Origin: Chitinophagales bacterium
GTDB taxonomy: Bacteria; Bacteroidota; Bacteroidia; Chitinophagales; Saprospiraceae
Assembly (NCBI GenBank): GCA_013298845.1
Contig: JAAFJN010000001.1
Span: 496,001 to 560,000, forward strand
Direction: 5' to 3'
DNA length: 64,000 nucleotides
Part shown: positions 7,587 to 58,416 of the stretch, in pieces
Layout: each line of letters begins with the position of its first letter
Numbering within the stretch: the stretch's first letter is position 1
The notes under the pieces: generated by a model
Seen by the model: only the letters and a program-made list of their open reading frames with translations
Databases searched by the model: none
Told to the model about the DNA's origin: nothing
Position numbers and translations under genes: made by a program

Positions 7587-7653
7587 CGAACACCGAACAC
7601 CGAACACCGAACACCGAACACCGAACACCGAACACCGAACACCGAACACCGAA
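7587..7653. repeat. Heptad tandem repeat (cgaacac)n, left arm of element A
   Basis: About nine and a half near-perfect tandem copies of the 7-bp unit cgaacac start 6 bases after the stop of the SRPBCC gene. The complementary unit gtgttcg reappears 70 bases downstream, so the two arrays form an inverted pair. Confidence 0.95.
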
Positions 7654-7723
7654 AAAAATAATACATATCTAATTATTTGTTTTTTGGCAAAAAAAAATAT
7701 CACGTCGCGATCCGATAAATACA

Positions 7724-7771
7724 CTTCGGTGTTCGGTGTTCAATTGTTCGATGTTCAACGGTTCGGTGTTT
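7724..7771. repeat. Heptad repeat, right arm of element A (ggtgttc units)
   Basis: Degenerate copies of ggtgttc/gatgttc, the reverse complement of the left arm, run to within 80 bases of the MFS transporter start. The 70-base spacer between the arms is A/T-rich and contains no gene. Confidence 0.85.
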
Positions 7772-25475: not shown

Positions 25476-25520
25476 AGTGAAAAGTGAAGAGTGAAAAGTG
25501 AAGAGTGAAAAGTGAAGAGT
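25476..25520. repeat. Heptad repeat, left arm of element C (agtgaaa/agtgaag)
   Basis: Six and a half tandem 7-bp units, alternating agtgaaa and agtgaag, lie upstream of the AMP nucleosidase. The opposite-strand version begins at about 25605, giving an inverted pair around a core of about 85 bases. Confidence 0.95.
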
Positions 25521-25604
25521 TTTCTTCCCGTTGTAGAGCGTTCTATTTTACTGAAAAACTAAAAATGAGGTATATTTATAGTTTTGATTTTCTGCACCAT
25601 AGAT
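25521..25604. repeat. Conserved core of heptad element C
   Basis: This spacer between the arms is not repetitive but is clearly related, in reverse orientation, to the spacer at 58297-58374. Shared blocks are CCCGTTGTAGAGCGTT (25527-25542; other copy CCCGTCGTAGAGTGTT), TTTACTG, GAAAAAC and ATTTTCTGCACCATAG (25587-25602; other copy ATTTTCAACACCATAG). Confidence 0.8.
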
Positions 25605-25742
25605 TCTTCTTCACTCATCACTTTTCACTCTTCACTTTTCACTCATCACTATTTACTTTTCACTCTTCACTTTTCACTCATCACTCTTCACTCTTCACTC
25701 TTCACTCTTCACTCTTCACTCTTCACTCATCACTTTTCACTC
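25605..25742. repeat. Heptad repeat, right arm of element C (cactctt/cactttt)
   Basis: About twenty 7-bp units of cactctt, cactttt and cactcat type run without losing phase up to and into the end of sucD. They are the complement of the left arm. Confidence 0.95.
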
Positions 25743-49662: not shown

Positions 49663-49839
49663 TGTGTATTGTGAAATATATAAGGAGTATTTGAAGATTG
49701 AAGCGTACGAGGGGGGTACGTTCAAAGCACAAAGGAACAACGTCTTTTGCAGGAAAGTATTATTTTTTCGCTAAAATATCCCTTGAATTGTACAGAAATG
49801 AACTTTGTTCTGATATTTGCGGCGAAGTTTTTTGTTTTG

Positions 49840-50007
49840 TGGGCTGGGCACATGTGTTTTTTGATTTAAGAATTCCGATTTAAGATTTAAGATTTTTGAA
49901 GTTTTTTTTGGGGTTGTGGGCTGGGCACATGTGTTTTTTTGATTTAAGAATTCCGATGTAAGATTTAAGATTTTTGAAGTTTTTTTTGGGGTTGTGGGCT
50001 GGGCACA
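49840..50007. repeat. Left flank of element D: 77-bp direct repeats made of heptads
   Basis: Two full and one partial copy of a unit of 77-78 bp (gggctgggcacat at 49841, 49918 and 49996). Each unit contains gatttaa-gaattcc-gatttaa-gatttaa-gattttt in strict 7-bp phase, followed by gaag and a T run. It lies just upstream of the four-helix-bundle gene. Confidence 0.92.
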
Positions 50008-50049
50008 TAAACAATATTTCATCATACTATCCGTAAATTACTAAAAAAT

Positions 50050-50412
50050 ATGAGTAACGAAACTAAAAAAGGGGTAGAAATAGAAAATCGGTTGATTGAA
50101 TTCGCATCGCGTATTTTAGATTTGACTGATTCTTTACCCCAAAAGCCAACTGCTAAACACATGGGCGGGCAAATTATGCGTTCGGGGACATCTCCAGCAT
50201 TGAATTATGGGGAAGCGAGAGCCGCAGAGTCCAGGGCAGATTTTGTGCATAAATTAAAAATACGCTTAAAAGAACTTCGAGAAACGCACATTGCTTTGCG
50301 CATTATCAAAAAACAAAAATGGACTTCAGATGCACAATTGGAGCCTATTTTGGATGAATGTAATCAACTGAATGCCATTTTTGTGGCCAGCCTCAAAAAA
50401 ATGTCAAGTTAG
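50050..50412 (+). CDS. Four-helix-bundle protein of the 23S rRNA intervening-sequence/Avd family
   Basis: A 120-residue helical protein of PF05635/TIGR02436 type: the pattern IEFASRILDLTDSLP, GGQIMRSGTSPALNYGEARAAESRADFVHKL, and a closing KIRLKELRETHIALRII helix is typical. Members form pentameric four-helix barrels that are basic and bind nucleic acid. Known contexts are insertions in 23S rRNA and the Avd partner of diversity-generating reverse transcriptases; neither is present here. The gene is flanked by inverted heptad repeat arms and ends directly at the right arm. Confidence 0.9.
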   Translation: MSNETKKGVEIENRLIEFASRILDLTDSLPQKPTAKHMGGQIMRSGTSPALNYGEARAAESRADFVHKLKIRLKELRETHIALRIIKKQKWTSDAQLEPILDECNQLNAIFVASLKKMSS

Positions 50413-50496
50413 CCTGCTCCACAAACCCCAAAAAACTTCAAAAATCAAAAATCGTATATCTTAATTCTTAAATCAAAAAAGCGCTCTACAATGGGC
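50413..50496. repeat. Right flank of element D with conserved core
   Basis: Starting at the stop codon, CCACAAACCCCAAAAAACTTC and then ATCTTAATTCTTAAATC are the reverse complement of the left flank. The core GCGCTCTACAATGGGC follows at 50481-50496 and is shared with elements C and F. The mscS start lies 17 bases later. Confidence 0.85.
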
Positions 50497-50513
50497 AAAA
50501 ACATAATATTCTC

Positions 50514-52913: not shown

Positions 52914-52953
52914 AGAGAGAAGAGTGATGAGAGATAAGAGATAAGAGATAAGT
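52914..52953. repeat. Heptad repeat, left arm of element E
   Basis: Units agagaga, agagtga, tgagaga and taagaga in 7-bp phase stand just upstream of era. The complementary arm begins at 53008. Confidence 0.9.
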
Positions 52954-53007
52954 TTTCACAAACAATAACTCGTCGCTCTATGCCAACGCTTTTCGGGCAT
53001 GTCCACA

Positions 53008-53103
53008 CACTCTTCACTCCATACTCTTCACTTTTCACTCTTCACTTTTCACTCTTCACTTTTCACTCTTCACTTTTCACTCTTCTCTATACACTCTCCT
53101 CTC
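53008..53103. repeat. Heptad repeat, right arm of element E
   Basis: About thirteen units of cactctt/cactttt in unbroken phase run into the end of the RND pump gene and supply its last codons. The 54-base spacer holds a GTTGgcaTAGAGCG-like block on the minus strand that may be a decayed form of the element C core. Confidence 0.92.
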
Positions 53104-57010: not shown

Positions 57011-58186
57011 ATGGCCAAAATCCTGATTGTGGATGACGAACTGCCCATCCGCCGCACATTAAGAGACATTCTTGAGTTTGAACAGTACGACGTAGACGAA
57101 GCATCCGATGGACTGGAATGCATCGCGAAGGTACAAAAAGAAAAGTACGACGTCGTTATTATGGATATTAAAATGCCAAAAATGGATGGCATCGAGGCTT
57201 TAGAGCGTCTGCAAATCCTTGCCCCCGAATTACCGGTGGTGATGGTAAGCGGCCACGGTAATATCGAAACCGCCGTGGATGCCGTTAAAAAAGGAGCCTT
57301 CGACTATATCTCCAAACCGCCGGATCTCAACCGGATGCTGATTACCATTCGCAACGCAATGGACAAATCGGAATTGGTAACCACCACGCAAAAACTGCAA
57401 AAACAGGTGCGCGGAGGGAACAAAGGCGTGAATATTATTGGCGAAAGTGCGCCCATCGTGGAAATTAAACGGATGCTCGATAAAGTGGCACCCACCGATA
57501 GCCGCGTCCTGATTACCGGCCCCAACGGGAGTGGTAAAGAATTGGTAGCCCGCTGGATTCACGAAAAAAGCAACCGCATCAACGGCCCCATCGTGGAAGT
57601 GAACTGCGCCGCTATTCCGTCAGAATTGATTGAAAGTGAACTTTTTGGCCATAAAAAAGGCTCGTTCACCGGGGCAGTTGCCGATAAACCCGGCAAATTT
57701 GAACAGGCCGAAGGAGGTACACTTTTCCTCGACGAAATTGGGGATATGAGCCTCGACGCACAAGCCAAAGTGCTCCGCGCCTTGCAAGAGAAAAAAATCA
57801 CCCGCGTGGGCGATTCCAAAGAAATTAAAGTGGATGTGCGGGTTTTGGCTGCTACCAACAAAGATTTGCGGGAAGAAATTGCCAACGGCCGTTTCCGCGA
57901 AGACCTTTATCACCGCCTCGCCGTTATTGTGGTGCGGGTTCCTTCGCTCAACGAACGCCGCGAAGATATTCCGCTGTTGCTGGAACATTTTAACCGCCGT
58001 ACCGCCGAAGAATACGGCCACGCCCCCAAAACATTTGCCCCCGAGGCCATTAAAGCCTTGCAGGATTACAACTGGACCGGTAATATCCGCGAATTGGCCA
58101 ACGTTGTCGAACGCCTTTTTATCCTCTGTGACCAAAAAGTCACCCACGACGACGTCATGTTATACGTTTACCCCAACCGAGGATAG
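57011..58186 (+). CDS. Sigma-54-dependent response regulator without DNA-binding helix-turn-helix
   Basis: The 391-residue protein has a receiver domain (1-120; phosphorylated Asp in VVIMDIKMPKMDG) and an AAA+ sigma-54 activation domain (about 140-385) with Walker A GPNGSGKE, the loop ELFGHKKGSFTGA, and Walker B GGTLFLDEIGDM. The usual Fis-type DNA-binding end is absent; the protein stops just after the AAA+ lid (VERLFILCDQKVTHDDVMLY). Bacteroidota have a conserved group of this form, so this is not a repeat-caused truncation, although repeats begin immediately after the stop. It must act from solution or through partners. Confidence 0.92.
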   Translation: MAKILIVDDELPIRRTLRDILEFEQYDVDEASDGLECIAKVQKEKYDVVIMDIKMPKMDGIEALERLQILAPELPVVMVSGHGNIETAVDAVKKGAFDYISKPPDLNRMLITIRNAMDKSELVTTTQKLQKQVRGGNKGVNIIGESAPIVEIKRMLDKVAPTDSRVLITGPNGSGKELVARWIHEKSNRINGPIVEVNCAAIPSELIESELFGHKKGSFTGAVADKPGKFEQAEGGTLFLDEIGDMSLDAQAKVLRALQEKKITRVGDSKEIKVDVRVLAATNKDLREEIANGRFREDLYHRLAVIVVRVPSLNERREDIPLLLEHFNRRTAEEYGHAPKTFAPEAIKALQDYNWTGNIRELANVVERLFILCDQKVTHDDVMLYVYPNRG

Positions 58187-58296
58187 AAGAGTGAATAGTG
58201 AAGAGTGAAAAACGAATAGTGAAGAGTGAAGAGTGAAAAACGAATAGTGAAGAGTGAATAGTGAAAAACGAATAGTGAAGAGTGAATAGATAAAAG
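58187..58296. repeat. Heptad repeat, left arm of element F
   Basis: Sixteen units in unbroken 7-bp phase. The units gaatagt, gaagagt and gaaaaac recur in a higher-order order of four to five units. The array begins one base after the stop of the sigma-54 regulator. Confidence 0.95.
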
Positions 58297-58374
58297 AGCC
58301 TATGGTGTTGAAAATGAACACTATACACGCAAAGGTTTTTCAATTCACCAGTAAAAAACACTCTACGACGGGCA
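58297..58374. repeat. Conserved core of heptad element F
   Basis: A non-repetitive spacer that matches the core of element C in reverse orientation: CCTATGGTGttgAAAAT (58299-58315), TTTTTCA, GTAAAA and AACACTCTACGACGGG (58357-58372). Confidence 0.8.
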
Positions 58375-58416
58375 ACTCTTCACTCTTCACTCTTCACTAT
58401 TCACTATTCACTTACT
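58375..58416. repeat. Heptad repeat, right arm of element F
   Basis: Three actcttc units, two actattc and one acttact, running into the end of the haloperoxidase-like gene, whose TAA is at 58412-58414. Confidence 0.92.

Follow-up and report, generated by a model that had tools for sequence, protein, structure and literature searches.

The window, the whole stretch of 64,000 nucleotides that was analysed, holds a small gene framed by inverted repeats. The element is intergenic, and its neighbours are divergent genes for an M1 peptidase and MscS. Its parts are as follows.

49829..50498, + strand: the inserted element as a whole (approximate ends, placed by eye)
49837..50008, + strand: left arm, made of 2.2 copies of a unit of 77/78 bp with GATTTAA heptads
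50050..50412, + strand: four-helix-bundle gene (PF05635/TIGR02436), 120 aa, pI 9.5
50413..50480, - strand: right arm, matching the left one in reverse complement
50481..50496, + strand: GCGCTCTACAATGGGC motif, outside the right arm

The assignment of the gene to the IVS/Avd-like family in a first-pass annotation was confirmed by matches to PF05635 (E = 3.9e-15, over the curated cut-off) and TIGR02436 (E = 7.3e-23). The closest solved structure was 2rld, which has five chains (E = 7.5e-16). In a Pfam scan that took in three window proteins, PF05635 was the sole match of this protein at E 0.001, and no enzyme domain was found. A single tRNA was the only match to Rfam at gathering scores in the 64-kb window. 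Lying between the M1 peptidase and MscS genes, the gene is not inside a 23S rRNA gene.

The left flank had been described as 77-bp repeats made of 7-bp units. The repeat of 77/78 bp stood, and the heptad composition was only partly right because the heptad-like part covers no more than about 33 bp of each unit (49863-49895, 76% GATTTAA matches; 49941-49973, 69%). The right arm is the reverse complement of the left, as annotated: 50430-50480 was 88% complementary to 49857-49907 over 51 nt, and the gapped arm match, which starts at the stop codon, scored 44 and ranked first of 93 candidate right flanks. By BLAST, copies of the left unit are dispersed in the genome of origin. It had 47 matches, three at the window site (two tandem copies and one right arm) and 44 elsewhere. 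In the predicted fold of the window RNA, the arms close a loop that holds the open reading frame (z = -6.28 vs 20 shuffles), and the RNA of a relative's locus, L192, folded likewise (z = -5.49).

Inverted arms and repeat period across relatives

The gene family was present in 54 of the 61 genomes of the source's bacterial family, its own included. Two gene pairs were constrained (dN/dS 0.089 and 0.033) and a third gave 0.386; three further near-identical pairs held too few changes for dN/dS.

For the arms test, the 250-bp left and right flanks of genes from the genome of origin and the same bacterial family were compared. L001 and loci with short flanks were dropped, so that 93 of 97 genes were used. 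A reverse-complement score of at least 20 was reached by 52 of 93 own flank pairs vs 1.85% of mismatched pairs. In direct orientation the same score was reached by 16 of 93 own pairs vs 0.6% of mismatched pairs; part of the flank similarity thus reflects shared repeats as such. Control open reading frames of the same loci had inverted arms in 1 of 166 cases, a soft control because their flanks may be coding; the direct-orientation and mismatched-pair controls are free of that fault. Scores below 15 were obtained for 26 of the 93 members, including L003 and L005 of the genome of origin, and at L003 both arms lie on the same side of the gene. The first-pass annotation had treated gene and arms as one unit and had named relatives without arms, or window arms absent elsewhere, as findings against it. 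Arms of their own in more than half of the relatives make the observation general, and the window unit itself recurs at the 44 further places.

Periodic flanks (z > 4) were found in 165 of the 214 genes used (of 220) vs 38 of 258 control open reading frames. The period was 7 in 106 genes, 8 in 36, 9 in 14, and another value in 9. The repeat unit differs at nearly every locus, and no exact string occurred more than twice among 85 left units. G exceeded C in 58 of these 85 units and fell below it in 10; on the right, C exceeded G in 63 of 88 units and fell below it in 7. Arm periods vary inside one genome. Placed on the protein tree, the period required 32 changes vs 36.0 in shuffled data, and 12 of 200 shuffles were as low. 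Since the period tracks the tree weakly, it is probably not set by the protein. The idea that the heptads serve as stop cassettes in all frames was rejected: a stop occurred in 47 of 85 left units vs 49.7 in shuffles.

The anatomy of the element recurs across phyla. In a named set of eighty loci, mostly from Bacteroidota, inverted arms (score at least 20) were found in 30 of 89 genes (of 93) vs 1.5% of mismatched pairs. Outside Bacteroidota, 28 of 32 rows from nine genomes, chosen by record title and including one archaeal MAG, were used. The counts were 23 of 28 at score 15 vs 5.4%, 15 of 28 at 18 vs 2.1%, and 9 of 28 at 20 vs 0.8%; nine of the 28 rows overlap the 89 named-genome rows, and single MAG assignments may be wrong. 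For cyanobacterial plasmids, 16 of 24 matching records were fetched and 15 of the 16 used; 8 of 15 had inverted arms at a score of at least 20 vs 5.7%.

Insertion sites and repeated copies

Arms and gene are present or absent as a unit at otherwise conserved sites. Using the MscS protein, 29 other congener loci were fetched, and the M1 peptidase gene was also present in 23. No match to the window element or protein was found in the M1 peptidase-MscS intergenic region of the 23 congeners with both genes. The gap measures 860 bp in the window and 122-346 bp in 22 congeners; at L154 it is 654 bp and holds a different insert with its own arrays.

Plasmids of Nostoc gave three further sites with bare counterparts. 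After traM, L497 and L499 have a bare site, L498 and L500 carry non-coding hairpins (by eye), and arms with the gene are present in L484 and L501. At the junction of genes A and B in a second operon, L503, L506 and L507 carry an element, which L488, L502, L504 and L505 lack. TTCTA flanks both sides of the filled junction in L506 and L507, and TTCTG stands on the right in L503; the flanking sequence may be a target-site duplication of 3-5 bp from which the right side of L503 deviates. L488 carries another element one gene beyond the A-B junction, at a place that is bare in L502, L504 and L505. L481 carries an element at the third site, nrdB-nrdA, which is bare in L508. As a separate observation, a non-coding hairpin with CAGGAGT arms breaks a four-helix-bundle gene in plasmid pNPM1 of Nostoc sp. 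N6 (L507:1021-1600, by eye), and the broken gene itself sits in arms of the same CAGGAGT unit.

Near-identical copies were also found at unrelated places. In the genome of origin, L001 and L002 encode the same protein within GTGAAGA arms at two places (98.9% DNA identity; L001 is close to a contig end). In a relative, G091, L192 and L197 are 90% identical over arms and gene, and their flanks are unrelated. The same gene with same-unit arms at two unrelated sites of one genome, seen twice, suggests mobility.

Between close species, L175 and L177 share both flanks and differ in the four-helix-bundle gene and the arm unit. L181/L182 and L185/L186 share one flank and likewise differ in gene and arm units.

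Gene-free hairpins at the same sites

Hairpins that lack the gene occupy these sites in some relatives. The best base-resolved case is the L192 site: its counterpart in G083, a close relative with 96-97% identity in the flanks, is a perfect gene-free heptad palindrome, and G091 carries the gene at the axis of that palindrome, with longer arms. At the L197 site in G083, the far right flank alone was matched.

For pcm, the region 3' of the gene was printed for 16 of 30 loci (L331-L360) and inspected by eye over 520-1000 bp. Solo hairpins with differing units were seen in 5 of 16, G083 among them, and one-sided arrays in 2; 8 were without an array, and the gene was present in 1 (G091). A regulator gene on the far side of the site was found in 7 of the 16, so the position of the others depends on pcm alone. 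L002 lies at the 3' end of prmA. Of the 28 congener loci with readable sequence there, a script detected arrays in 6, two-sided in 4 of these, and a seventh hairpin was called by eye; one of the 29 congener loci (L436) had no readable downstream sequence. The units again differ. Most of these arrays begin at the stop codon, and one begins about 100 bp past it. The gene downstream of L002 was not found at the prmA site in congeners, so this site is fixed by one side. Hairpins called by eye rather than by script were L433, the right side of L446, the left side of L447, L498, L500 and all those at pcm.

The strongest competing explanation is that heptad hairpins are host features, such as terminators or STRR, that grow by slippage, and that the gene is a passenger carried by homologous recombination through the arms, with no part played by its protein. 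Solo hairpins are indeed common in the genome of origin (400 kb held 16 arrays, of which 12 had an inverted partner), and STRR hairpins were described with no mention of the gene in the available part of one report (PMC2670836). Recombination between same-unit hairpins would also explain the G083/G091 case well, since one gene occurs twice in G091, both times in a hairpin built of the same unit, and one of the two sites corresponds to the G083 solo hairpin of that unit. It does not explain insertion into bare sites, and the three Nostoc sites have bare counterparts, which offer no hairpin to recombine with. Different species, moreover, carry different units at one site, and genome G055 had no array in 80 kb, yet has genes with strong arms (e.g., L037 and L078). 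We consider the passenger explanation unlikely. In these small samples, genomes that have the gene and genomes that lack it could not be told apart by array density: sampled stretches gave 0, 0, 0, 3 and 3 arrays in genomes without it (30-80 kb each) vs 0, 0, 1, 4 and 11 in genomes with it (80 kb each).

Comparison with known systems

The first-pass annotation held that the known roles of the family do not explain the gene. This does not hold for the 23S rRNA intervening sequence (IVS), the family's namesake home, which has the same anatomy. The Coxiella 23S IVS is described as having 28-bp inverted ends that form a terminal stem, tandem GACAGAT heptamers in variable number and an S23p open reading frame (PMC4990558). 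According to the available part of that source, the PF05635/S23p frame lies in the loop of an inverted-repeat stem, heptamers of variable copy number adjoin it, the insert replaces a hairpin loop, and the family has no known function. Window-type elements differ from the IVS in that they lie outside rRNA, in several copies per genome, often have stems of tandem repeats on both sides and have solo hairpins at the same sites. Having the anatomy of an IVS but lying outside rRNA, the window element is, on this comparison, best regarded as an IVS-like hairpin element, like an IVS in its working yet not classed as one.

The STRR of cyanobacteria share with the window type 7-bp tandem repeats that form hairpins, between genes or in an intron stem (PMC2670836; PMC4476775). 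Their unit class can be swapped at the same stem, as in the P6b stem of trnL, where one heptad class was reported to be replaced by another (PMC4476775). Window-type repeats, in contrast, are tied to a loop gene and are seen as insertions. STRR hairpins look like the solo form of the element, a link drawn in the present analysis. Families of tandem heptanucleotides in Geobacter metallireducens were taken as regulatory, as far as the available text goes (PMC2700814), and the terms S23, four helix and intervening are absent from the available part of the report on the TAACTGA heptamer (PMC4679880).

The REPIN/RAYT system is said to combine a coding element with dispersed non-coding hairpins in one genome, and RAYT encodes a HUH tyrosine transposase. 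The likeness lies in this combination and in the inverted pairs of a short repeat found here. The window protein, in contrast, had no transposase domain match (Pfam, E 0.001), and the window-type stem consists of tandem repeats with a locus-specific unit.

Proposed mechanism

The reading that we favour, with a probability of roughly 0.7, is that gene and arms form one inserted hairpin element with the gene in its loop and tandem repeats in its stem, and that the protein aids its spread. The stem consists of short tandem repeats, here partly GATTTAA and elsewhere other units, mostly of 7-9 bp. The transcript would fold into a closed stem with the open reading frame in the loop. From the RNA folds and the dN/dS constraint we infer that the basic, probably pentameric protein binds its own hairpin, which would help copies to insert themselves into other hairpins or into gene 3' ends. 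Such entry may be likened to the way an IVS in rRNA stands in for a helix loop. Non-coding hairpins would be related to the element as REPINs are to RAYTs, as its non-autonomous counterparts, and the inserting enzyme may be the host's.

A broader proposal, which we put forward tentatively and hold at somewhat below even odds, is that PF05635 proteins are mobility factors of hairpin-borne elements across phyla. Free-standing genes, solo heptad hairpins (STRR-like) and the 23S IVS would then be three states of one thing that spreads into hairpin loops and gene 3' ends, with the pentamer binding the tandem-repeat stem. Both the heptad repeats of bacteria and the way in which the rRNA IVS arose are long-standing open questions, and the unit may link these unexplained seven-letter repeats to the inserts in rRNA genes. 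Among the matches listed in a search of open-access literature, none joined the PF05635 family, heptad repeats and IVS origin. Because gene, heptads and IVS anatomy meet here with base-resolved empty sites, the question of binding and moving becomes testable.

An accessory role of the protein in a reverse-transcriptase (Avd) or CRISPR system, with the arms as regulatory stem-loops, appears improbable. Avd of diversity-generating retroelements is a homologous four-helix bundle, and PF05635 is reported as the commonest family in a DGR-linked set (PMC10053308); 18 PF05635 genes are reported in cas loci (PMC3936711), and L482 and L495 show the order cas6-gene-cas4. The window neighbours are, however, M1 peptidase and MscS, gene copies with arms lie at unrelated sites, and inverted arms are present at L482 (score 40) and L495 (29.5) as well.

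Loss instead of gain, with an ancestral element precisely removed in single lineages, is possible at the L192 site, where G083 keeps a perfect heptad palindrome in place of the gene of G091; as a general account it is very improbable, given that half of the printed pcm loci have no array in the inspected span and the gene was seen there in G091 alone, that the window gene had no match in any of the 23 congeners, and that near-identical copies lie at unrelated places (L001/L002 and L192/L197).

The motif and the non-coding hairpins

The motif next to the right arm had been matched to the core of two non-coding elements of the window, C and F, which were taken as derivatives of the gene element. 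The match was borne out: with one mismatch allowed, the window held three matches to CTCTACRAYGGG, each of them exact (25527-, 50484+ and 58361+), vs a mean of 0.48 in shuffles. The 6.37-Mb genome held 29 matches, and the reversed pattern none. Period-7 arrays adjoin 21 of these places, and 14 have one on each side, vs 12 and 1 of 1000 random positions in a 400-kb sample. Many motif places have a loop core in common. The motif places are mostly a separate non-coding hairpin family. The motif was also considered as part of the gene elements, which the genome of origin did not bear out: of the five PF05635 genes in the genome of origin, four lie away from motif places and one, the window's, at such a place.

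The proposed descent fared worse. The window gene, C and F do have the motif and inverted heptad arms in common, but the arms of C and F are of the GTGAAGA type, matching the gene copy L001/L002 and not GATTTAA, and the motif stands between two arrays in C and F vs outside the right arm at the window gene. Together with the four PF05635 genes off the motif places, these differences leave little likelihood that C and F derive from the window gene. C and F are of the same general kind as the window element, with descent from its gene unsupported.

Non-coding inverted heptad arrays with short cores lie between genes at 7587-7770, 25476-25742, 52914-53085 and 58186-58412 of the window, with arm units of CGAACAC and GTGAAGA types. 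Among congeners, a GTAGAGT loop core recurs in the solo hairpins L348, L354, L434, L440, L443 and L447 and resembles the window motif CTCTAC on the opposite strand.

A second gene family with inverted flanks

Genes of the GxxExxY family (TIGR04256) were present in 36 of the 61 genomes of the source's bacterial family. When 27 of 30 such genes were used in the arms test, 15 of 27 reached score 18 with inverted flanks, vs 2.3% of mismatched pairs; in direct orientation the count was 5 of 27. None of the 27 had arrays of period 7 to 9 on both sides. Inverted flanks are thus not special to the PF05635 protein, and the genes carried by hairpin elements may be of several kinds. The inverted arms at the GxxExxY genes L205-L234 have other unit types, e.g., CGCAAAGG and CCACTGAGA.

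Two minor observations were made at single loci. In L489, a four-helix-bundle gene lies in a CRISPR operon in the order cas10-gene-cmr3, with an inverted-flank score of 17. In L003:1880-2050, a separate REP-like inverted repeat (30 nt, 80%, 111 nt apart) stands directly 3' of the L003 gene.
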